Shown here: in pieces, positions 10,196 through 63,956 of the stretch
Layout: the number at the start of each line of letters is the position of its first letter
How positions within the stretch are numbered: position 1 is the stretch's first letter
Assembly: GCA_001777915.1 (NCBI GenBank)
Contig: MFFN01000006.1
Coordinates: forward strand, 1 to 64,000
Direction of reading: 5' to 3'
DNA: 64,000 nt
Source: Candidatus Edwardsbacteria bacterium RifOxyA12_full_54_48
Lineage (GTDB): Bacteria; Edwardsbacteria; AC1; EtOH8
Position numbers and translations under genes: made by a program
Notes under the pieces: model-generated
The model's input: only the letters and a program-made list of their open reading frames with translations
What the model was told of the DNA's origin: nothing
The model's database searches: none

Positions 10196-11515
10196 TTATT
10201 TATTGCCACCATCCTTCTTTTTCCTCCCCTCCCAGCCCCGCTCGGTGGGAAAATAGAACTTCTGGTCCTTGATCTCGTCCGGCAGGTGCTGCTGGTCCAG
10301 TTTGGCGTCGGGCTCGTCGTGGGCGTAGCGGTAGCCGGCCCCGTAGCCCACCTCCTTCATCAGCTTGGTGACGGCGTTGCGGATCACCAGCGGCACCGGC
10401 AAAGAACCGGAGCGGTCTATCTCCCGCATCACCGCGCCGTAGGCCTTGTAGACCGCGTTGCTCTTGGGCGCCAGGGCCAGATAGATCACCGCCTGGGCCA
10501 GGGCCAGCTCGCCCTCCGGCGTGCCCAGGAAATGATAGGCCTCTTTGGCCTGGTTGGCTATCAGCAGGGCGTTGGGATCGGCATTGCCGATGTCCTCGGT
10601 GGCAAAGCGGATCATCCGCCGGGCCACATACAACGGGTCCTCGCCCGAGGCCAGCATCCGGGCCAGCCAGTATAAAGATCCGTCGGGATCGGAGTCCCGC
10701 AGGGATTTATGCAGGGCCGAGATCAGGTTGTAATGCTCCTCCCCGGCCTTGTCGTACAGCAGGGATTTCCTCTGCATGGCCTCCTCGGCATCGGCCAGGG
10801 TCACCGTTCTCTTCCCGTCCTGGTCCGGTTTGACGGTGCTGACCGCCAGCTCCAGAGCGTTGAGGGCGGTGCGGGCGTCGCCGTAGGAGGACTGGGCGAT
10901 GAATTCCAGGGCCTTGGCATCGGCCGCCGGATGGAGCTCGGCCAGCCCCTTTTCTTCTATTAGAGCCCGCTCCAGAATGCCCTTGATATCCTCCTCGCCC
11001 AGGCCTTTCAGGATCAGCACCTTGCTGCGGGATAAAAGGGCCGAGATCACCTCGAAGGACGGGTTCTCGGTGGTGGCCCCTATCAGCACGATGGTCCCCC
11101 GTTCCACGTAGGGCAGAAAGGCGTCCTGCTGGGCCTTGTTGAAGCGATGGATCTCGTCCACGAAAAGGATGGTGCGCTGGCCCTGGTGGCTGCGCTTGGC
11201 CTCGGCTTGCTTGATGACCTCCTTGATCTCCTTGATGCCGGAGATCACCGCCGAGAATTCCAGAAAATTGGCCTTGACCGAGCTGGCGATGATCCGGGCC
11301 AAAGTGGTCTTGCCGGAGCCCGGCGGACCCCAGAAGATCAGCGACGGCACCTCGCCGGATTCCAGGATCTTGCGCAGCACCCGTCCGGAGCCGATCAGAT
11401 GCTCCTGGCCCACCACCTCGTCCAGGGTGCGGGGCCGCATCCGGTCGGCCAGGGGCACGGATTTGGCCTCGGCCGATCTATCGGGAAATATTTCGGTCTG
11501 ATCGGTCATGATCAT
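10196..11515 (-). CDS. rarA: Replication-associated recombination protein A (AAA+ ATPase)
   Basis: This 439-residue RarA/MgsA/WRNIP1 family ATPase acts at stalled replication forks. It shows a clamp-loader-like AAA+ core: Walker A GPPGSGKTT (about 64-72), Walker B ILFVDEIHRFNKAQQDAFLP and sensor 1 GATTENPSFEV. The C-terminal MgsA tetramerisation domain is present (ALHKSLRDSDPDGSLYWLARML, RRMIRFATEDIGNADP). Length fits the family. Two in-frame ATGs (11515, 11509) exist with no clear ribosome site, so the start is uncertain by two codons. The C-terminus is Lys-rich. It is upstream of, and apparently independent from, the protease promoter. Confidence 0.96.
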   Translation of the reverse strand: MIMTDQTEIFPDRSAEAKSVPLADRMRPRTLDEVVGQEHLIGSGRVLRKILESGEVPSLIFWGPPGSGKTTLARIIASSVKANFLEFSAVISGIKEIKEVIKQAEAKRSHQGQRTILFVDEIHRFNKAQQDAFLPYVERGTIVLIGATTENPSFEVISALLSRSKVLILKGLGEEDIKGILERALIEEKGLAELHPAADAKALEFIAQSSYGDARTALNALELAVSTVKPDQDGKRTVTLADAEEAMQRKSLLYDKAGEEHYNLISALHKSLRDSDPDGSLYWLARMLASGEDPLYVARRMIRFATEDIGNADPNALLIANQAKEAYHFLGTPEGELALAQAVIYLALAPKSNAVYKAYGAVMREIDRSGSLPVPLVIRNAVTKLMKEVGYGAGYRYAHDEPDAKLDQQHLPDEIKDQKFYFPTERGWEGRKKKDGGNK

Positions 11516-11543
11516 TTAAGGAATTGTGGTTAGTTGCTATTTT

Positions 11544-11591
11544 AGATCACCCCTTCCCCTCCTTGATCAAGGAGGGGATTAAGGGGAGGTC
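11544..11591. repeat. Nested palindromic repeat with TTGATCAA centre
   Basis: The core at 11556-11577 is a perfect palindrome (CCCCTCCTTGA and its complement). It is nested between GATCACCCCTT on the left and AAGGGGAGGTC on the right, which are themselves near-complementary. The right arm reaches the TGA stop of the amidase gene. Related copies lie at 19518-19604, 20456-20490 and 48071-48134. It looks like a non-autonomous intergenic repeat; it could also act as a hairpin at the mRNA 3' end. Confidence 0.75.
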
Positions 11592-13374
11592 ATTTTATTT
11601 TCAAAAGAAATTCTTTCATCCCGATAAAGATGGCCCTGGCGATCCTCTCCTGGAAAACTCCGTCCAATAAAAGGGCTTCCTCGCGGGGGACGATGATGAA
11701 GGCCGGCTCCACCAGGATCGAGGGGAATTCGGTGGCCCGGCACAGCACCAGGTTGCCGTAGAACAGTCCGTGGTCGTTAAGCGGAAGCGTCTTCTGAAAC
11801 TGACGGTGGACCGTCTCGGCCAGCCACCGGCTGTAGGGCTGGTAGTAATAGGTGGAATATCCGCTGTTCAACAGGGGATTGGCTCCGTCCGGCGAGGCGT
11901 TGTTGTGGATGCTGATCAAAATATCCGCCTTCCAGCCAGCCGCCCGGCTGGGGCGCTGGTAGATGCCGGCCCCCTCAGACCCCTCCCGGGTGTAGAGAAC
12001 CGAGGCCCCCTCCTTCTTCAGCATCCGGCCCAGCCGCTGGCTGATCTGCCAGTTGATGTCCTTCTCCAAAGTTCTCAAGGGGCCCACTGCGCCGTTGTCC
12101 GGGGAGTGCCCGGGATCCAGGGCTATTTTTAAATTTTTGAATGGAAGTTTATGGTTGATGGCCGGCGGGGCCTTTAAAGACAGCACCAGGTTGTTGTTCT
12201 GATAGGCAGTGCTGTATCCCCACAATTTGCCGGCCAGAGACACCTCCAGCTCCACCGTCCGGCTGTCAACCTGCCTCCAGCGGATATCGTTGACAAAACC
12301 GTCGGCCGGATCGTAGCGCACCCAGTCCATGTCGGCCCGGACATCGTAAAGCACCATCTTCAGGCTCCGTCCATCGGCTCCGGGAAAGACCTGATGGACC
12401 GAAGGCCGTGACAGCAAGATGCTCAGTTGGCTGCCGCGGGGTTCCCTGGCCGTCTTGACCAAAACCAGCTTGGCGGCAGGGAATATTTTCCCCGCCGGAA
12501 ACAGTTCCAACGAGTTCTGTTTGACCCAGGCCTCCTTGGCCTCCGAAAGCTTCAGCCGGTAATACTGATCGTGAATTCCGTTGATCTGCAGGATCGTTCC
12601 CCGGGGCAGGAACATCTCATAGCCCAGGTCCGGGGCGGTCTTGAGCACCGCAAGGGAATCCTTCACTTTGGCAAAGACCTGGCGGGCATCGTCCCAATTG
12701 CTGAGAATTGGCCCGGTGGAATCAATTACGGAATTTCCTTCCCGGTCAACCAGGTAAAAATATATTCGCTGGCTTTCCCAGCCCTCATCTCCCCTTATCA
12801 GGCAGGACCCGCCGTAGATGCCGGGCACCACAGTGGTATCGGCGGTGGAGGAGTCGGAAAAAGCCAGGACCTTGTCGTCCGGCTCGGTTGATGCATTCTG
12901 CTCAACCATCACCCGACCGCGGCCTCGGCCCACCGAAAAACTGGCCTTGCCGCCGGGCGTCCCCTGGAATGAAACATAAAGGCGATCTCCTGCCGGCAGG
13001 CTCAATTTGTAATTGGGGTTGATCGAGCCGTGCAGGATGCACAGGCTGTCAGGCCGGATGTTCTTTTTGCCCGCAGCCACCTTCACCTTGCGATCCAGGG
13101 TGGCGATGCCCGAGGCATCCAAAGCCGACAGCTGGATGATGAATTCTCCCGGATCGAACGGGATATAAGCCAGAAAGGCCCCGGTCTTGTAGACCTCCAC
13201 CTTGCGACCGTTGACCGAAAGCTGGCTGCCGGGCGTTACCGATCCCAGGATGAACGACCAGGAGACCGGCCCGATATCGGCTCCCTCCGGTGGATAGACC
13301 AGGTCTATTTGGGGGGCAGATCGGGCCAGCCCCGCAACGATAAGCAGGATAAGGATGCTGCTGATTTTTCTCAT
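11590..13374 (-). CDS. N-acetylmuramoyl-L-alanine amidase (Amidase_3 type)
   Basis: This 594-residue secreted zinc amidase cleaves the bond between muramic acid and the stem peptide of peptidoglycan. It has a signal peptide (about 1-19), a long beta-rich N-terminal part with SH3-like and AMIN-like character (about 20-400), and a catalytic domain over about 410-594. That domain shows IALDPGHSPDNGAVGP, VLYTREG, ILISIHNNA and the late Glu motif FPSILVEPAFI, the expected ligand and catalytic residues of this fold. Its start shares one base (TAATG) with the stop of the LysM-like gene upstream, so the two are translationally coupled and probably work together at the cell wall. Confidence 0.93.
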   Translation of the reverse strand: MRKISSILILLIVAGLARSAPQIDLVYPPEGADIGPVSWSFILGSVTPGSQLSVNGRKVEVYKTGAFLAYIPFDPGEFIIQLSALDASGIATLDRKVKVAAGKKNIRPDSLCILHGSINPNYKLSLPAGDRLYVSFQGTPGGKASFSVGRGRGRVMVEQNASTEPDDKVLAFSDSSTADTTVVPGIYGGSCLIRGDEGWESQRIYFYLVDREGNSVIDSTGPILSNWDDARQVFAKVKDSLAVLKTAPDLGYEMFLPRGTILQINGIHDQYYRLKLSEAKEAWVKQNSLELFPAGKIFPAAKLVLVKTAREPRGSQLSILLSRPSVHQVFPGADGRSLKMVLYDVRADMDWVRYDPADGFVNDIRWRQVDSRTVELEVSLAGKLWGYSTAYQNNNLVLSLKAPPAINHKLPFKNLKIALDPGHSPDNGAVGPLRTLEKDINWQISQRLGRMLKKEGASVLYTREGSEGAGIYQRPSRAAGWKADILISIHNNASPDGANPLLNSGYSTYYYQPYSRWLAETVHRQFQKTLPLNDHGLFYGNLVLCRATEFPSILVEPAFIIVPREEALLLDGVFQERIARAIFIGMKEFLLKIK

Positions 13375-53549: not shown

Positions 53550-54074
53550 TTATTTCACCTGCTTTTTATAGAAGTAATTGGCTATCATATCAAAATAATC
53601 AGCATCCGTGGCAACTCCAAAATAAAATTTCGGATTCTTTTTCCCATCAGTCAATATAGCCCCTACTATATGCTCTTTACCAGTTTTAGAAAACATGGTG
53701 ACCTCACCATTATCTTTCACAATTTTGTAAATTGGTTTTGAAGAAATACTGCATTTGACCCCGGTTTTATTTAAAGAATCGATAACAATATTTGTGTAAT
53801 GCTGGAAATCGCTCAATACCTCATCAATTTCATTTGTTTTGCCACCGTTTTTCACAATTGAATCATATTCAGTATTTGTCAATGAAAAGAATATGACACT
53901 TTTGCCTTTTACATATAAAGTATCATTGACAATCACTTTGGTGTTTTGAACATTAGCCTCTTTCTTTGTACAACCGAATAATAACGAGAATATACAAGAC
54001 AAAATAAAAAGAAAGACTAATCTTTGATTATAGCCAGAATTGAAATACCTTATGGAAGAGATTATTGTTTGCAT
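53550..54074 (-). CDS. Hypothetical AT-rich lipoprotein
   Basis: This 174-residue protein has a hydrophobic stretch with lipobox LLFGC at about residues 31-35 and a polar Lys/Asn/Ile-rich remainder ending YFYKKQVK. I do not recognise a family. Base composition is clearly AT-rich against mobB and moeA on each side. It abuts the mobB ATG. It has the look of an inserted gene in the molybdenum-cofactor run. Confidence 0.65.
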   Translation of the reverse strand: MQTIISSIRYFNSGYNQRLVFLFILSCIFSLLFGCTKKEANVQNTKVIVNDTLYVKGKSVIFFSLTNTEYDSIVKNGGKTNEIDEVLSDFQHYTNIVIDSLNKTGVKCSISSKPIYKIVKDNGEVTMFSKTGKEHIVGAILTDGKKNPKFYFGVATDADYFDMIANYFYKKQVK

Positions 54075-54167: not shown

Positions 54168-55379
54168 TCACCTGAATAATTCGACAACCACTACATCCCC
54201 CGGCTTAACTCCCTCGCACTCTTCCGGCAGGATCATCAGCCCGTCGGCTTGGACCATGGAGGTCAAAATGCCCGACCCCTGCGGCCCGGTGAGCACTGCG
54301 TGATACGCGCCTTCCTGCCATTTTACTTTTGCGCGGAGGAACTCCGTCCTTTCGGCCTGTTTCCTTATTCCCTGGCCGCTGTACGCTGTCACCTGCACCC
54401 TGAATATATTCATTGCTCCCTGCATCTTCAGCAGCAACGGACGGACATACTGGTCGCAGACCACCATCGAGGACACCGGGTTGCCCGGAAGCCCCACCAC
54501 CGGCTTGCCGTTGATATGCCCATAGGCCAGCGGTTTTCCCGGCTTCTGTTTCACCTGCCAAAAGTTCATCTGCCCCAGTTCGGACAGCGCCTGTTTCATC
54601 AGGTCGTAGTCGCCCACCGACACGCCGCCGGAAGTGATGACCACATCGCATTCCCGGGCCGCCTGGTTCAGGGTTTCTTTGATCTTTTCCAGATCGTCAG
54701 TGATGATACCGTAATCCTTGACCAAGGCCCCGGCCTCTTTCACTTGTCCGCCGATGCTGAAACGGTTGGCATCGTAGATCTGGCCCGGCTTCAGCGGCTG
54801 GCCCGGCGCGGCCACCTCGTTGCCGCTGGAGATGATCCCCACCACCGGCTGTTTGGAGACCAGGGCTTCGGTCAAGCCCAAGGAAGCTATCAGCCCCACC
54901 TCCTGCGGTCGCAATCTTGTTCCCTTTGTTATCAGCAATTGCCCTGCCGTAACATCCTCTCCCTGCCTGCGGACATTGGCTCCTTGCTTGACCTCCTGTA
55001 ATATTTTGCAATTTGAAATTTGCAGTTTGCATTCAGTTAGTTCCACAGGAATCACGGCGTCCGCCCCCTCCGGTATCTGCGCCCCGGTCATGATGCGGAT
55101 GGCCTGCCCCGGTTTCAAGGACTTGGCGGGCACCCTGCCGGCCGGGACGTCCTCGATGACCTGCAGGGTCACAGGACTTTGCTCCGAAGCCCCGGCGACA
55201 TCGGAGGCGATGACGGCAAAGCCGTCCATGGCCGAGTTGTCCCTGGGCGGGATGTCGAATGAGGCCGTGACGTCCTGGGCCACTATCCGGCCCAAGAGGT
55301 CCTCCAGACGGCATTTTCCCGGGGGCAAAGGGTTTATGCCCTCCAGCATTTTGCTGCGTGCTTCGTGGAATGAAATCAT
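54168..55379 (-). CDS. moeA: Molybdopterin molybdenumtransferase MoeA
   Basis: This 403-residue enzyme inserts molybdate or tungstate into adenylylated molybdopterin. Motifs: PPRDNSAMDGFAVIASD (about 41-57), GAQIPEGADAVIPVE, GVSVGDYDLMKQAL and the GLPGNPVSSMVV loop. A MoeA C-terminal domain (about 325-403) closes the protein. The ATG comes one base after the stop of the zinc-ribbon/NDT gene and has no nearby ribosome site, so it is likely translated by coupling. Confidence 0.96.
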   Translation of the reverse strand: MISFHEARSKMLEGINPLPPGKCRLEDLLGRIVAQDVTASFDIPPRDNSAMDGFAVIASDVAGASEQSPVTLQVIEDVPAGRVPAKSLKPGQAIRIMTGAQIPEGADAVIPVELTECKLQISNCKILQEVKQGANVRRQGEDVTAGQLLITKGTRLRPQEVGLIASLGLTEALVSKQPVVGIISSGNEVAAPGQPLKPGQIYDANRFSIGGQVKEAGALVKDYGIITDDLEKIKETLNQAARECDVVITSGGVSVGDYDLMKQALSELGQMNFWQVKQKPGKPLAYGHINGKPVVGLPGNPVSSMVVCDQYVRPLLLKMQGAMNIFRVQVTAYSGQGIRKQAERTEFLRAKVKWQEGAYHAVLTGPQGSGILTSMVQADGLMILPEECEGVKPGDVVVVELFR

Positions 55380-55380
55380 T

Positions 55381-56448
55381 TTATTTGCTATCTTGATTTC
55401 CTTTGGATTTTAAGGGACCTTCACCAAACTGCTCTACAATTGAGTTGTAAATATCTTCTTCAAATTTATTTAACTTTTCTTTTGCGTCATATTCCCATAA
55501 AATAAATTGGCGGTGATTTACATCAAAATGGGTATGCCGTTCCTCTTTTATAATTCCCTTTTTCCATTGATCATTTATCTTGTATTCGCCTTCATTTTCT
55601 GCCTCTTTATTATCAAACCAATCTTTTTTACAGGTCCAAATAACATTTAGACCTAAACCCTTCGCAAAACCTGCCTCAAAATATACACCTGCACGTTGCC
55701 CGGTAAAATCGGCAATCATAAATTTACTTTTTTGTATTTCCGCTAATATTTGCGATGTCACTTCATTGTCGTGTTTTACATCCGGTATAATCATAGGTTT
55801 ATAACCAGCCCTTTCAATTGCCTTGCTAATATAGTCCAGATATACTTTATTCATTTCATCAGTAAACCACATTGCAATAAAGCACTGCTCTGAAACATTT
55901 TTAATTATTGAAAGATCCTGTATTTTCTTCCAACCATCTACTGTGATTTTATAACCCTGAGAACCTCTGTTTTGTTTAAAGAAATTTATTTCATCTAAAT
56001 ATTTAAGATAATATTTAAATTCGTTTTCATCAACGCAATAACCAAGTGCATAATCTTTTACTGGGTTGATCTCAATATCAGAACTCGGGTTATTAGCTAA
56101 ACGTGATAAATTTATAAGTAATTTATCAATTTTATCTGGTACGGTTTTTGGAGCTTGTTGAATCGCAGTTGTAATAAATGTTTTAAAATCATTCAATTTA
56201 ATATCAATGGTCCGGTTAAGTAACGTTAACTCTCTTGTATAGCCAATAAATTGAGACCGGTTTTCATTAGTAATTTCGTATGGTTTTCTTGTCTTAATAT
56301 TGTCATAACTCAATGAATATTCTAGAGAATAATTACCACAACATTGACATTCAATACTTGCTATACATAATAATGGTGCGTCTGTCCTATTAATAACTGT
56401 ATTGACATCTGGATTGCCGCAAATAATACAACCACTGATCTTTTCCAT
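55381..56448 (-). CDS. Zinc-ribbon / winged-helix / nucleoside 2-deoxyribosyltransferase-like protein
   Basis: This 355-residue protein is AT-rich in coding sequence. Residues 7-37 hold a probable zinc ribbon (CIIC and CQCC). About 143-180 resembles a winged helix (KYLDEINFFKQ, YKITVDGWKKI). The C-terminal domain (about 188-330) begins CFIAMWFTDEMNKVYLDYI and carries the nucleoside 2-deoxyribosyltransferase-like motif DFTGQRAGVYFEAGFA, whose Glu (258) aligns with the catalytic residue of that fold, related to TIR NADases. ATG 56448 has GGAG upstream. It splits the Tup transporter genes from moeA. A defence-type sensor plus nucleotide hydrolase is plausible but unproven. Confidence 0.7.
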   Translation of the reverse strand: MEKISGCIICGNPDVNTVINRTDAPLLCIASIECQCCGNYSLEYSLSYDNIKTRKPYEITNENRSQFIGYTRELTLLNRTIDIKLNDFKTFITTAIQQAPKTVPDKIDKLLINLSRLANNPSSDIEINPVKDYALGYCVDENEFKYYLKYLDEINFFKQNRGSQGYKITVDGWKKIQDLSIIKNVSEQCFIAMWFTDEMNKVYLDYISKAIERAGYKPMIIPDVKHDNEVTSQILAEIQKSKFMIADFTGQRAGVYFEAGFAKGLGLNVIWTCKKDWFDNKEAENEGEYKINDQWKKGIIKEERHTHFDVNHRQFILWEYDAKEKLNKFEEDIYNSIVEQFGEGPLKSKGNQDSK

Positions 56449-56466
56449 ATTAGACTCCAAATATAA

Positions 56467-57576
56467 TTATTGTTCTTCTTTCCAAATTCTTACAGAACTG
56501 GCCTTGAACACCGCATACACCCTGCTGCCCTTCTGCAAACCCATCTCGTCCCACGAGGCCTTGGTAATGGCCACGTCCAACGCCACGCCTCCGTTTTGCG
56601 ACATACTCTGGCGTGCAAGCACGCCCACGTCCACCGTAGCCTTGTACAACCCGCCCTCGGAAACTGCCTCGGTAACAACTCCCTCCAGCACATTGCGGGC
56701 GCTGCTGACTAATTTCTGCGATGACAAAATTATCTCATTGGGATTAAGGCTGGCCATGGCCGGGCCTTCCAGCTCTGTTACAATCTCGAACGATACACCA
56801 TTGATCTTAAACGATTTCCTATTTCCGATATTTTCAATTTGCCCGGCAAATATGTTGTCCCGTCCCAGAAACTTGCCCCAAAAGGCCTGGTCGCCTTTGT
56901 GCAGAACATCCTGGGCCGTGCCGGAGATGGAGATCACCCCGTCGTTGAGGAACCACACCCAGTCGGCTATCCGCTCCACCTGCCACAGATTGTGGGTGGC
57001 CAAAACCACTTTCTTGCCCCGGGAGGCCAGCTCCAGAATGGTCTTTTCTATCAGCTTGGCGCTCAAGGGGTCCAGATTGGCGGTGGGCTCGTCCAGAAAA
57101 ACCACCTCCGGGTCCAGCGCCAGCACCCGGCCCAAGGCCACCCGCTGGATCTCCCCGGCCGAGAGGGTCCTGGCTTCGCGTTTCCCAAAACCTTTTAATG
57201 ACAGCACCTCCAGCGCCTGGTCCGACCTTCTTCTCCGCTCTGCAGGGGACACGCCCCTAACCCGCAAACCGTATTCCAGGTTGTAGCGCACCTTGCCGGA
57301 CAGCATCACCGCCGGGTTGTGGATCAGGCCCATCTTCTTTCTGATGCCCGACGAATGCACCACCGCATCATATCCCTCGCTGTCCCGGGTCTTGTATTTA
57401 AGGGTCCCTCCGTCGCTTTTTTCCAGCAGGGCCAGCATCCGCATCAAAGTGGTCTTGCCCGAACCGTTGGGACCGACCAGGGCATAGATGCCTGAATTAT
57501 CGATGGTCAGCGAAACGTCCTTCAGCACGGCCTTGCCGTCAAAGCTTTTGGAGATGTTTTGGGCCGTTATCTTCAT
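56467..57576 (-). CDS. tupC: Tungstate/molybdate ABC transporter ATP-binding protein
   Basis: This 369-residue ATPase has Walker A VGPNGSGKTTLMR, signature LSAGEIQRVALGR, Walker B VVFLDEPTANLD and the His switch ATHN. A C-terminal region (about 255-369) has two TOBE/Mop-like beta units (FKINGVSFEI..., VVTEAVSEGGLYKATVDVG), which in molybdate/tungstate ATPases bind the oxyanion and shut transport. The ATG overlaps tupB by four bases. It is longer than the ATPases without TOBE. Confidence 0.92.
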   Translation of the reverse strand: MKITAQNISKSFDGKAVLKDVSLTIDNSGIYALVGPNGSGKTTLMRMLALLEKSDGGTLKYKTRDSEGYDAVVHSSGIRKKMGLIHNPAVMLSGKVRYNLEYGLRVRGVSPAERRRRSDQALEVLSLKGFGKREARTLSAGEIQRVALGRVLALDPEVVFLDEPTANLDPLSAKLIEKTILELASRGKKVVLATHNLWQVERIADWVWFLNDGVISISGTAQDVLHKGDQAFWGKFLGRDNIFAGQIENIGNRKSFKINGVSFEIVTELEGPAMASLNPNEIILSSQKLVSSARNVLEGVVTEAVSEGGLYKATVDVGVLARQSMSQNGGVALDVAITKASWDEMGLQKGSRVYAVFKASSVRIWKEEQ

Positions 57577-58361: not shown

Positions 58362-59459
58362 TTAGAATTTGACCTGCAATTGGGCCATCAAAACATTATT
58401 CTTCACCGGACGAAGCGCCATATCTTCCAGTTTGACATCATAGTTCAAGGTAACCTTGGTATTGGGATTCAGGAAATAATCGGCGCCCAGATTGCAAATG
58501 ACGACCCGGCTTTCCTGCTTGCCCCACCAGGCGGTGATCCCGTCGGTAACCAGGTCCCAGGAACAGTTTTCGCGGTACATATCGCCGCGGACATTGACCT
58601 TCAGTTTGGACAGGGGCACATAGCCCACCGTCAGATAACCTCCGCGCATCAGGTTCCGGTCCAATCCCGCCTGCTTTACCTTGACCGCGCCGACCATGAC
58701 GGAATCGGTGGCCAGGACCTTGTCATCCTGCCCTATCATGAGCTCGCCCCGGGCGAACAGCTTACCCATTTCATAATTGGCCTCCAGCCCGGCGTGGCGG
58801 TTGTAAAGGCTCTTCCCCACCAGGTTCTGGGTGCCGTATTCCACCGAGCCGCCCACGGTCATGCCCGCCAGCGGCGCATAGACAATGCGAGAAACGACCG
58901 TCTTTGACGAATTGGCGTCCTTTTCGTTGTAGGGGGAACCATTGCCCACCGAAAGCGAGTAATTCAGGTCATTCCAGACGCCGAAGCCCATCACGCCAAC
59001 CTCCCGGTTGCTGGCGTTGAACTTCCCGGTGAGCTGGGCGGCGTTGACGAAATCCATGCTGGTGGCCGCCAGCATCTGTTCATATCCGAAAGGCCGCTTG
59101 TACTGGCCCACCCGGAAGGAATAAAGCTTGGAGGGTTTCCAGTCGGCGTAGGCGTCAAACAGCCAGGTGGCATAGACCGTGCTGGTGCTTACCTTGGTGG
59201 CCTTGTTTGACTGCAGACAGATCCGGTAGGCTAGGTTGCTCCATGCGTCGCCGCTGACCACGATGGCCGCGTCCTTGGCCTCGAAACCCGAGGGAGGGTT
59301 GACCAGGGTGTCGTGATACAGGGTGTCCATGTAGGTAATTTTGAGCCAGCCCGAAACCTTGAAGGTGGGATAGGCCTGTTTGGCGTCGGTCTTGACGTCA
59401 AAGGCAAAGGCTGATCCGGCTAAGGCAAAGACCATGGCCAGTAATAATATTCTCTTCAT
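58362..59459 (-). CDS. Outer-membrane porin of the tungstate/molybdate operon
   Basis: This 365-residue protein has a signal peptide (MKRILLLAMVFALAGSAFA), then alternating beta strands and a final aromatic residue (QLQVKF), the hallmark of outer-membrane barrels. Strands such as WLKITYMDTLYHD, KLYSFRVGQYKRPFGY and KVTLNYDVKLEDM resemble OprO/OprP-like porins. Its start shares one base with the end of the second binding-protein gene, so it is coupled to it. It probably lets oxyanions cross the outer membrane. Specificity is not shown. Confidence 0.82.
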   Translation of the reverse strand: MKRILLLAMVFALAGSAFAFDVKTDAKQAYPTFKVSGWLKITYMDTLYHDTLVNPPSGFEAKDAAIVVSGDAWSNLAYRICLQSNKATKVSTSTVYATWLFDAYADWKPSKLYSFRVGQYKRPFGYEQMLAATSMDFVNAAQLTGKFNASNREVGVMGFGVWNDLNYSLSVGNGSPYNEKDANSSKTVVSRIVYAPLAGMTVGGSVEYGTQNLVGKSLYNRHAGLEANYEMGKLFARGELMIGQDDKVLATDSVMVGAVKVKQAGLDRNLMRGGYLTVGYVPLSKLKVNVRGDMYRENCSWDLVTDGITAWWGKQESRVVICNLGADYFLNPNTKVTLNYDVKLEDMALRPVKNNVLMAQLQVKF

Positions 59460-60301
59460 TATCTCTCTCTTTTAGATATTTGGTTGTTTGTTTTTGCATC
59501 GGGAATGTACAGGGGCTCGCCGAATTTGTCCATGCCCGAGACCCGGATCATTTCCTGCACTTCGGGCGAGAGCATGAATTTCACAAACTTTACCGCCAGG
59601 TCGTAGTTGATATGGGGATACTTGGCCGGCGACCCGGTGATGATCCGGATGTAATTGAGCATCAGCTGGTCGCGCTGGCAGACGATCTTGAGGTTCGGGT
59701 AATCCTTGCTGTAGGTCAGCCAGGTGGCCCGGTCGGCCAGGGTGTAGGCTCCGTCCTTGTTGGCCTTGGTTAATACCTTGACCGTGCCCAGCCCGGTCTC
59801 GGAATACCATTCGCTGTCGATGGGATCTATCCCGGCGGACTGCCACAGGGCCATCTCCTTCTGGTGGGTGCCGGACATGTCGGACCGGAAATAAAATTTG
59901 GACTTGACATCCCGCACTTTGGCCAAAGCGGTCTTGACGTCGGGCAGCGAACTGTCGATACCGGCCGGGTTGTCCAGCGGCCCCGCCAGCACGAAGTCGT
60001 TGTACATCAGGTCCCAGGCTTGGGTGCCGAAACCGGCCAGCAGCACCGCGTCCTCGGCCTTGCGGTCGTGAACTATGGCCACGTCAGCCGCCCCGGACTG
60101 CAGCAGCCCAAGGGCCTTGCCGGTGGGCAGGGAATACAGCAGTATCCTGCAGTCATTCTGCAGTTCGAATTTGGGCAGCAGGTCGGTGTACAGCCCGGTA
60201 TCGTAGGGGCTCATGGTGGAGGCCACGATCAGGGTCTGCCCGGCCAGGGCCCAGGAGCTTAATGAAAGGATTATTATACCAATTAATGCGGTCTTTTTCA
60301 T
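59459..60301 (-). CDS. Diverged TupA-like periplasmic oxyanion-binding protein
   Basis: This 280-residue protein has a cleavable signal peptide (ending WALAG) and an overall TupA layout: LPKFELQNDCRILLYSLPTGKALGLLQSG, ADVAIVHDRKAEDAV, MYNDFVLAGPLDNPAGID and FRSDMSGTHQKE. The canonical TTTS(T) binding loop of TupA is changed to ASTMSPYDTG. It follows the first tupA with no gap. The change in the loop suggests another oxyanion or affinity. Confidence 0.87.
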   Translation of the reverse strand: MKKTALIGIIILSLSSWALAGQTLIVASTMSPYDTGLYTDLLPKFELQNDCRILLYSLPTGKALGLLQSGAADVAIVHDRKAEDAVLLAGFGTQAWDLMYNDFVLAGPLDNPAGIDSSLPDVKTALAKVRDVKSKFYFRSDMSGTHQKEMALWQSAGIDPIDSEWYSETGLGTVKVLTKANKDGAYTLADRATWLTYSKDYPNLKIVCQRDQLMLNYIRIITGSPAKYPHINYDLAVKFVKFMLSPEVQEMIRVSGMDKFGEPLYIPDAKTNNQISKRER

Positions 60302-61129
60302 CTATTTCTTCTCCGCCGCCGGGTAGAACAGGGGCTGGCCGTACTTGTCCACGCCGTACTCGGCGATCAGCTTCTGGCCGCGCTCCGAGGTCAGGAAGTC
60401 CGAGAACTTTTTGGCCAGCGAATAATTGACGAACGGGTACTTGGCCGGGGCCACCAGCATGATGTGATAGGGGTTGAACAGTTCCTGGTCGCCCTCGGTC
60501 AGGATCGGAAGTTCAAACTCCTTCTGGTGGGCCAGATAGGTGCCGCGGTCGGTCAGGCAGTAAGCCCTTTTCTCGTTGGCTATGCGGAGCACCGCTTCCA
60601 TCCCGGCTCCGGCCTGGAGATACCATGATCCCTTGGGGCTCAGCCCGGCCACCGCCCACATCCTCTCCTCTTTCTTGTGGGTGCCCGACTGGTCGGCCCG
60701 GGAGACGAAGGTTGCCTGCGAAGCCTCTATCTTCTTCAGCGCTTCGGCGGCGGAGGCCAGGCCCTTGATGCCGGCCGGATCCTCGGCCGGGCCCACTATC
60801 ACGAAATCATTGTACATTAGGTATTTCCGTTCCACGAAAAAGCCTTCCTTGACCACCACTTCTTCGGCCACCGGGTCGTGGACCATCACGATGTCGGCGT
60901 TTCCGTCCTTGCCGTAGCGGATGGCGGCCCCGGTGCCCACCGCTATGATCTGCACCTTGCAGCCGTTCTCCTTTTCGAAGATGGGGACCAGGAAATCCAG
61001 CAATCCCGAATCCATGGTGCTGGTGGTGGTGGCCAGGACCAGCTTGGGCTTGTCCTTGGCCTGGGCCACGGGGACCAGCAGGGAAAGGACCAGAAGCAGT
61101 GACAGGGACAGTGTTGCAAACCTCTTCAT
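60302..61129 (-). CDS. tupA: Tungstate-binding protein TupA
   Basis: This 275-residue periplasmic protein captures tungstate (or molybdate) for TupB/TupC. It has a signal peptide (MKRFATLSLSLLLVLSLL... ending AQA), then LATTTSTMDSGLLDFLVPIFE with the TTTS loop, VGTGAAIRYGKDG, ADIVMVHDPVAEE, MYNDFVIVGPAEDPAGIKG and SRADQSGTHKKE. ATG 61129 with GGAGG just upstream is the start; a 19-codon extension is not supported. It is the first gene after the riboswitch. Confidence 0.95.
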   Translation of the reverse strand: MKRFATLSLSLLLVLSLLVPVAQAKDKPKLVLATTTSTMDSGLLDFLVPIFEKENGCKVQIIAVGTGAAIRYGKDGNADIVMVHDPVAEEVVVKEGFFVERKYLMYNDFVIVGPAEDPAGIKGLASAAEALKKIEASQATFVSRADQSGTHKKEERMWAVAGLSPKGSWYLQAGAGMEAVLRIANEKRAYCLTDRGTYLAHQKEFELPILTEGDQELFNPYHIMLVAPAKYPFVNYSLAKKFSDFLTSERGQKLIAEYGVDKYGQPLFYPAAEKK

Positions 61130-61171
61130 TTTTCCTCCAGAACAGTTAATGATTATATGGGTGATATAAAA

Positions 61172-61207
61172 TAATGAAAAGCCCATCCTGTAAGGAACAG
61201 GATGGGC
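61172..61207 (-). terminator. Terminator of the riboswitch leader
   Basis: On the minus strand an 11-bp perfect stem GCCCATCCTGT / ACAGGATGGGC (loop TCCTT) is followed by TTTTCATTATTTT, 43 bp before the tupA ATG. This is the expected off-switch for a leader that senses a cofactor. Confidence 0.85.
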
Positions 61208-62651: not shown

Positions 62652-63956
62652 TCATATTATTTCTTTGATCAATATGACTTCTTCCGGCTTCGTATTTGAA
62701 ATATTGATGCATCTTTGAAGCCGATGGGCCGCTTCCCGCCCCTTCTGCTCATCATTGCAAAGCACTTTGACCATGGTGTCCCCTGCTTTGACCTGGTCGC
62801 CGATCCTGCGTTCAAAGATGAATCCGGCCGAGGGATCGATCACATCATCCATCTTCAGCCGGCCGCAGCCCAAAAAGACCCCTGTCATGCCCACCTCGCG
62901 GTTATCCATGGAGGAGATGTATCCGGATCGCTCCGCTTTTGCCTCGATGACATGCTTGGCCTGGGGCAGCACTTTCTTATAGTCATCGGCCACTTTGGCA
63001 TCCCCGCCGTGGGCCGCTACCATCTCCCTGAACTTCTCCAGCCCCTGACCGGAAGAGACTATCTGCTCAAGGACCCGTTTGCCCGATTCTGCATCCTGGG
63101 CCCGTTCGCCCATCACCAGCATCTCGGCTCCCAGGGCATAGGTCAACTCCATCAGGTCGGCAGGGCCCTTGCCTTTAAGACAGTCCACGCATTCCTCTAT
63201 CTCCAGAGCATTGCCCACCGCCCGGCCCAACGGCTGGTTCATATCGGTGATCAGGGCCTTCATCTTTTTGCCCATTCCCTGCCCAATGGCCGTCATGGTT
63301 TTGGTCAGCGCCAGGGCGTCCTGCTGCTTCTGCATGAAGGCCCCGCTGCCGGTCTTGACGTCCAGCACCAGCCCGTCGGCCCCCTCGGCCAGCTTCTTGG
63401 ACATGATGGACGCGGCTATCAGCGGAATGCAGTCCACCGTGGCGGTGACGTCGCGCAGGGCGTAGAGTTTCTTGTCGGCCGGAGCCAGGTCCGGGGTCTG
63501 CCCCATCATGGCCAGCCCGATCCGGGCCAAAGTATGCCGGAACTCATCGTATGAAAAGTTGGTGCGGAAACCCTGTATGGATTCCAGCTTGTCCAGCGTT
63601 CCGCCGGTGTGGCCCAGCCCCCGGCCTGAGACCATCGGCACCGGCACTCCGGCCGCGGCCACCATCGGGGCCAGGATGATGGATACCTTGTCCCCCACCC
63701 CGCCGGTGGAATGCTTGTCAATTTTTATGCCGGGAATATCCGACAGGTCGAACACCTTTCCGGAGTTCATCATGGCCATGGCCAGTTCGGTGGTCTCCTG
63801 TGCCGTCATGCCTTTCAGGAAGATGGCCATCAGCAGGGCCGAGGTCTGGTAATCGGGAATGGCGCCTGAGGTATAATTGGCGATGAACCATTTGATCTCG
63901 TCCGGCGTAAGCTCGCCGCCATTGCGCTTTTTATAGATGATCTCGTAAGGGGTCAT
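62652..63956 (-). CDS. deoA: Pyrimidine-nucleoside phosphorylase
   Basis: This 434-residue enzyme splits thymidine and/or uridine with phosphate to the base plus (deoxy)ribose 1-phosphate. The N-terminal helical domain, the phosphate site KIDKHSTGGVGDKVSIILAP (about 80-99), SGRGLGHTGGTLDKLES, the DVKTGSGAFMQ motif and the C-terminal PYNP barrel-sandwich domain are present. It may be thymidine phosphorylase (deoA) or the broader pyrimidine phosphorylase (pdp); sequence alone does not say. GGAGG precedes the ATG. The upstream gene lies outside the window. Confidence 0.95.
   Translation of the reverse strand: MTPYEIIYKKRNGGELTPDEIKWFIANYTSGAIPDYQTSALLMAIFLKGMTAQETTELAMAMMNSGKVFDLSDIPGIKIDKHSTGGVGDKVSIILAPMVAAAGVPVPMVSGRGLGHTGGTLDKLESIQGFRTNFSYDEFRHTLARIGLAMMGQTPDLAPADKKLYALRDVTATVDCIPLIAASIMSKKLAEGADGLVLDVKTGSGAFMQKQQDALALTKTMTAIGQGMGKKMKALITDMNQPLGRAVGNALEIEECVDCLKGKGPADLMELTYALGAEMLVMGERAQDAESGKRVLEQIVSSGQGLEKFREMVAAHGGDAKVADDYKKVLPQAKHVIEAKAERSGYISSMDNREVGMTGVFLGCGRLKMDDVIDPSAGFIFERRIGDQVKAGDTMVKVLCNDEQKGREAAHRLQRCINISNTKPEEVILIKEII

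Follow-up and report, generated by a model that had tools for sequence, protein, structure and literature searches.

A candidate single-protein anti-phage effector with a zinc ribbon and an NDT/TIR-like domain between tupC and moeA in Candidatus Edwardsbacteria

Introduction

Several described defence proteins join a recognition module to a domain of the nucleoside 2-deoxyribosyltransferase (NDT) or TIR type. In DUF4062/Swarozyc, a TIR-type effector has been shown to be joined to a recognition module (PMC13174449). Retron effectors pair NDT-like and winged-helix domains in defence (PMC12548924), and fusions of AbiJ-NTD to NDT or TIR domains, some with a zinc ribbon, are a predicted abortive-infection layout (PMC3710099). 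Here, we analyse a gene at positions 55381-56448 of a 64,000-nt stretch of Candidatus Edwardsbacteria bacterium RifOxyA12_full_54_48 (contig MFFN01000006.1, positions 1 to 64,000; hereafter, the window).

The encoded protein shares with the TIR and TIR-like NADases (SPARTA TIR-APAZ, DUF4062/Swarozyc) the fold, a single catalytic Glu, the fusion to a recognition module and a Phe adjacent to the active site, but its recognition module is a different one and it has no Argonaute. The DUF4062 profile (PF13271) matched only one of 62 family members, weakly (E 0.003), and did not match the window protein. The domain pairing is that of the NDT–winged-helix retrons, to which the window protein adds a zinc ribbon; no reverse transcriptase was found among the neighbouring ORFs, so the locus does not classify as a retron, and the solved retron effectors gave no sequence match to the protein. 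An N-terminal recognition domain followed by an NDT/TIR toxin also recalls the AbiJ-NTD fusions, and the N-terminal half matched none of the AbiJ domains in Pfam. No CD-NTase partner lies beside the gene, whose flanks are tupC and moeA, which sets it apart from CBASS. With PF05014 and DNPH1 (Rcl), the family has the fold and the catalytic Glu motif in common, and it adds a sensor half, a C-terminal HFDxxxxxxIxW motif and a Phe in place of the Tyr associated with deoxy specificity. PHROG 16139, an uncharacterised phage family, covers the middle and catalytic parts (phrog_16139, residues 80-280, E 4.3e-36), with the zinc ribbon outside the match. No validated defence system of this architecture was found in the libraries searched.

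Results

An AT-rich gene within a tungstate/molybdenum operon

The features of the locus are as follows.

55381..56448, minus strand: coding sequence (P0001, 355 aa) of a candidate single-protein defence effector that combines a zinc ribbon, a putative sensor of helical/winged-helix type and a catalytic domain of the NDT/TIR fold.
56269..56448, minus strand: zinc ribbon, residues 1-60 (C7, C10, C34, C37); cysteines near-invariant among 62 relatives, with weak profile matches to IF2-beta and LysW-like zinc ribbons.
55894..56268, minus strand: helical linker and winged helix (presumed sensor), residues 61-185, based on the secondary structure of the model and on PadR/MarR-type matches.
55426..55893, minus strand: NDT/TIR-like domain, residues 186-341, with F190, A192, D247, E258, F308 and D309 invariant.
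56449..56466, no strand: 18-nt spacer from tupC to the gene, containing a GGAG Shine-Dalgarno-like motif; upstream edge of the insertion. The corresponding empty site in genome G005 reads tupC-TAG-T-ATG-moeA.
55380..55380, no strand: the one base that separates the stop codon of the inserted gene from the moeA start; the 1-nt spacing is identical in genomes G001 and G002.

The gene is encoded on the minus strand, from an ATG at 56448, with the GGAG motif 6 nt upstream, to a TAA at 55383-55381. Both flanking genes, tupC (56467-57576) and moeA (54168-55379), are co-directional with it. Its GC content is about 30-31%, against 0.55-0.60 in the neighbours. Coordinates, strand and composition thus agree with the sequence-only reading, which had described an AT-rich gene lying between tupC and moeA in the same direction. 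The minus-strand operon is arranged as two tupA-like genes, tupB, tupC, the 55381-56448 gene, moeA, a small lipoprotein-like gene and mobB, and the neighbours gave ABC_tran plus TOBE (tupC), MoeA and MobB domain matches. A scan of the minus strand from tupC to moeA found no terminator-like site, which makes transcription of the gene from the operon promoter plausible. Full-length homologues occur in many phyla, so that a chance ORF is excluded on comparative grounds and the ORF is taken to be a real gene.

The operon has other variable parts. A second AT-rich gene (GC about 0.33; 174 aa) lies between moeA and mobB at window positions 53550-54074 on the minus strand. Its product carries a lipoprotein-like signal (LLFGC) and matched no family; a copy with 78% identity is present in G003, and the gene is missing from G001, G002 and G007. 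The two tupA-like substrate-binding proteins are encoded in tandem at 59459-61186, and the second one is missing in G001, G002 and G006.

Domain architecture and fold

Conservation and profile tests were based on an alignment of 62 relatives. All 62 matched the Pfam family Nuc_deoxyrib_tr (PF05014) at E<=0.01, with a best value of 1.3e-7; the window protein alone reached E 0.0054 and 17.3 bits, below the curated cut-off of 28.8 bits. The PADLOC 'Effector / TIR' model matched the window protein at 2.4e-6 and was matched by all 62 relatives (best 1.9e-16), covering only the shared catalytic domain. Searches of solved structures with the single window sequence returned nothing meaningful, and the family profile found DNPH1/Rcl and the trypanosome NDT. 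A search of NCBIfam with the window protein gave no match.

The full-length AlphaFold2 model has a mean pLDDT of 89 and a pTM of 0.76. Its leading Foldseek matches were NDT, SPARTA TIR-APAZ chains, the CMP N-glycosidase BcmB, DNPH1 and the SARM1 TIR domain, with modest scores because the alignment is limited to the C-terminal part. Proteins of the TIR-type fold (SPARTA TIR-APAZ, RPP1 and SARM1) were found at E 0.004-0.05, with TM-scores of about 0.45-0.65 when normalised by single TIR-domain targets. We therefore assign the protein to the broad superfamily of the PF05014/TIR fold. Modelled separately (pLDDT 92), the N-terminal half begins with a cysteine ribbon and continues with helices and a winged helix. 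The CxxC...CxxC residues C7, C10, C34 and C37, as well as G38, are nearly invariant in the 62 relatives. A profile of this half weakly matched the PadR-type regulator 1xma over residues ~98-170 (E 0.006), and the model resembles the MarR, CRP and pNOB8 winged helices with low scores. The proposed succession of zinc ribbon, winged-helix-like and NDT-like parts was accordingly upheld by the conserved cysteines, by weak winged-helix matches and by PF05014 in all the relatives.

Active site and predicted substrate

The catalytic Glu lies in a GxxxExGxA motif and corresponds to E258 of the window protein. Since VYxEAGxA was part of the pattern used in the genome scan, the invariance of this motif is partly built in; we therefore tested conservation again in relatives from plasmids and whole genomes that had been retrieved without the motif. 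Of the 19 intact members in this set, 18 retain Glu258, the exception being a protein (L175) that has lost D309 too; a stop codon interrupts a further relative (L172). Conservation of the catalytic Glu, named beforehand as one of two points on which the sequence-only reading would stand or fall, thus held in homologues found independently of the motif, apart from the degenerate L175. F190, A192, D247, F308 and D309, which are independent of the search motif, are invariant in the 62 members.

Three hhalign comparisons, all in the same register but with a low overall probability, place the conserved Tyr of true NDTs opposite the invariant F190. In work on Thoeris, a Tyr hydrogen-bonded to the Glu accompanies 2'-deoxy specificity, and TIR NADases usually have a Phe or Ala (PMC11204291). 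As the deoxy-specific Tyr is replaced by Phe, as in TIR NADases, a ribo-substrate such as NAD+ is favoured for the family, a prediction that draws on one residue position.

Distribution of the family and neighbours of homologues

The genome scan retrieved 522 relatives, and the best 80 of these, which were kept, are scattered over many phyla. In an unbiased survey, the family was present at E<=1e-20 in 17 of 241 genomes (mostly cross-phylum), with full-length copies in about 10-11 of the 241, three of them in the genus of the window. Viral contigs scanned with the single sequence yielded none, as did a protein search of phage records; an alignment query later retrieved 38 IMG/VR contigs carrying the family, eight of which have terL within 7 kb. 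The homologues are poorer in GC than their own flanks in 70 of 75 loci, with a mean difference of -8.7 points compared to +0.5 for control ORFs. Most annotated relatives are labelled 'hypothetical protein' and one is labelled 'nucleoside 2-deoxyribosyltransferase'.

The genome of the window also encodes a 328-aa paralogue (33% GC) without the zinc ribbon, on contig C5 (L038 8198-9184), with a type II/III DNA methyltransferase gene some 5 kb away. The region L038 1491-9184 is an AT-rich island that comprises this methyltransferase, a 540-aa AT-rich ORF, small AT-rich ORFs and the catalytic-domain paralogue.

A constant partner gene was sought around 102 non-redundant loci and none was found; it is mainly restriction, phage and resolvase genes that recur. 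In the comparison loci, genes were called by longest ORFs, and contigs from metagenome-assembled genomes may contain errors. In six of 78 loci (L057, L082, L099, L106, L117 and L120), the gene lies within or next to a complete hsdM/hsdS/hsdR set. The homologue lies between hsdM and hsdS in L057 and between hsdS and hsdR in L082 and L117. Based on the hsdR frequency in 193 genomes, 0.2-0.4 type I restriction–modification (R-M) loci would be expected among the 78 (P 5e-8 to 6e-6); this Poisson estimate is a rough one, takes no account of variation from genome to genome and concerns a similarity-ranked set of 80 loci. Type I R-M excepted, the general PADLOC content of the immediate neighbours was similar to that of control sets taken 5-7 kb away, and a general defence-island location is therefore not claimed. 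The majority of the neighbours are ordinary genes, defence linkage being seen in a minority of loci. Plasmid relatives adjoin genes for SEFIR, NACHT or TIR-domain proteins. Surveying the neighbours of homologues for defence genes, as the sequence-only reading proposed, thus gave a mixed outcome: type I R-M and prophage contigs link the family to defence genes and mobile elements, the kind of association by which anti-phage genes are recognised, and the general defence content is that of the controls.

Some neighbouring genes deserve mention in their own right. In L117, a 588-aa ORF directly 3' of the homologue (10977-12743), inside the type I R-M operon, weakly matched the PADLOC model Aga_REase-PNTD1-PNTD2 and may be a partner. 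In G001, an AT-rich (35% GC) zinc-ribbon gene 3' of an rpmE-like gene (L030 12629-13315) matched PADLOC PD-T7-4 at 1.9e-11. In G002, a KAP NTPase gene of 28% GC (L031 10830-12200) replaces the gene found at window positions 62652-63956; it matched PDC-S20, PifA and QatA (7e-31, 2.8e-20 and 1.6e-19, respectively). Both the PD-T7-4-like and the KAP genes are AT-rich and defence-like and lie within the conserved neighbourhood and the genus of the window.

The tupC-moeA junction in close relatives

Homologues lying mostly next to Mo/W genes had been named in advance as an outcome contrary to a defence role. Such adjacency is limited to Ca. Edwardsbacteria, where it is indeed found: outside this family, MoeA, MobB or tupA genes occurred within 7 kb of none of ~78 chromosomal homologues. 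Distant ABC-transporter genes, not tup-specific, are present near some of the latter.

The content of the junction varies among the relatives of the window. It is occupied by homologues in G001 and G002, and by REP-associated transposase-like ORFs, Y1-type by appearance, in G003 (L032 9023-9580) and G007 (L033 8316-8855), which end in or at the moeA start. It consists of about 100-200 nt of non-coding DNA in G006 and G008, and is empty in G005, where the tupC stop is separated by a T from the moeA ATG. In all five of these genomes (G003, G005, G006, G007 and G008), moeA is intact and no homologue is present at the junction. A further homologue (L045, DCUZ01000011.1) overlaps moeA by ATGA, and this moeA is 66% identical to that of the window. 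The record is titled Holophagales bacterium UBA2201; gene order and identity indicate that the contig appears to belong to the Edwardsbacteria family. It has an ORF start in common with G009, which belongs to the same family as the window genome, and the moeA genes of L045 and G009 show about equal similarity to the window moeA. The moeA identity and the ORF shared with G009 place L045 in another genus of the family.

In the phylogeny, the four moeA-linked homologues formed one group, with a support of 89, which is not strong. The catalytic core of the G001 and G002 proteins is closer to that of UBA2201 (70%) than to that of the window gene (56%), and among the relatives the window gene is far more divergent than moeA (42% vs 80-89%). 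The closeness to UBA2201 raised the possibility that the window allele was replaced recently, but the tree did not reject a single clade of the three genus members (p-AU 0.996). The moeA-adjacent site is shared by at least two genera, which argues against a recent one-off insertion. Residence at this site thus goes back far in the history of the family; it has been broken by losses or replacements, and the AT-richness has persisted.

Divergence of the sensor and catalytic halves

Between the sister species G001 and G002, only four base differences were found over about 730 nt, from the extreme end of tupC to ~codon 238 of the gene. Third-position identity is 99% for codons 1-225 and drops to 58% in the remainder of the gene, comparable to 60% in moeA and 63% in tupC. 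Because the N-terminal codons are near-identical while the catalytic half has diverged like the flanks, the sensor half was exchanged recently between the two species. Simple assembly mixing is disfavoured, as differences exist inside the exchanged tract. When recognition evolves in an arms race, sensor modules are expected to be exchanged while the catalytic domain stays resident, as with the specificity subunits of restriction systems.

Discussion

Architecture, conserved residues, position, recombination of the sensor half, GC content and the association with R-M loci and prophages together are best explained by a one-protein, phage-responsive abortive-infection effector, a reading to which we assign a probability of about 0.58. 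Phage sensing, NAD+ cleavage, abortive infection and co-transcription are the parts of it that we infer. In this model, the zinc ribbon and helical/winged-helix half would recognise a phage-derived nucleic acid or protein, and recognition would release or cluster the C-terminal NDT/TIR-fold domain. Glu258 as the nucleophile, together with Asp247 and probably also Asp309, would then cleave a ribosyl bond, most likely the nicotinamide–ribose bond of NAD+ and less likely that of a nucleotide base, and substrate depletion would halt phage growth. The tupC-moeA junction would offer a safe, constitutively transcribed berth, at which an in-register insertion would keep moeA translationally coupled. 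Against this reading, at least two genera have retained the gene 5' of moeA, a longer stay than would be expected if it were a freely moving defence gene. The domains named in the sequence-only reading were right, and the anti-phage layout that it saw in them is, on genomic evidence, the best-supported interpretation, that of a candidate.

Other roles would account for part of these observations. The resemblance of the N-terminal winged helix to PadR, MarR and CRP proteins and the position of the gene within the operon would suit a nucleotide-responsive transcription regulator, with a DNA-binding zinc ribbon and winged helix and an NDT-like ligand sensor; its target might be the tup/moe operon. 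We consider this unlikely, given that D247, E258 and D309 are conserved across phyla beyond the needs of a mere ligand pocket, that homologues outside the family have no Mo/W genes nearby and that the presence of the gene is patchy. The gene might instead be a phage-derived moron or selfish cargo, such as a superinfection-exclusion factor or toxin-like stabiliser, caught at an insertion-tolerant junction and useless to the host. The phrog_16139 match, the homologues on prophage contigs and the transposase-like ORFs at the same junction in two genomes point in that direction, but the catalytic half has been kept at the site, with a G001/G002 divergence at the vertical level, which suggests retention for a function and makes useless cargo less probable still.

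The least likely of these alternatives is a nucleotide-processing enzyme tied to MoeA/MobB, acting in cofactor chemistry or nucleotide salvage. Its NDT/DNPH1-like fold and its direct coupling to moeA in the window's own genome, G001, G002 and UBA2201 would be in keeping with such a role, and nucleotide modification for cofactor chemistry had been put forward earlier as the alternative to defence. It is disfavoured by the five family genomes in which moeA is intact without the gene at the site, by homologues elsewhere that are unlinked to Mo/W genes, and by a strongly AT-rich composition and a divergence far exceeding that of moeA.

Beyond this locus, the abortive-infection reading may extend to an undescribed cross-phylum family of stand-alone defence enzymes, in which zinc ribbon–winged helix sensors would pass as modules from one species to another and the NAD+-cleaving TIR/NDT domain would remain where it is, and for which junctions of housekeeping operons and type I restriction operons would serve as landing sites. 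This generalisation is tentative, and we hold it at somewhat less than even odds. If true, a one-gene defence family has been missed by annotation, and defence genes may be hidden within conserved metabolic operons, outside defence islands. The swap of the sensor half would then indicate which half of the protein recognises the phage, and the Tyr-to-Phe change provides a substrate prediction for the family, namely NAD+ rather than deoxynucleotides.
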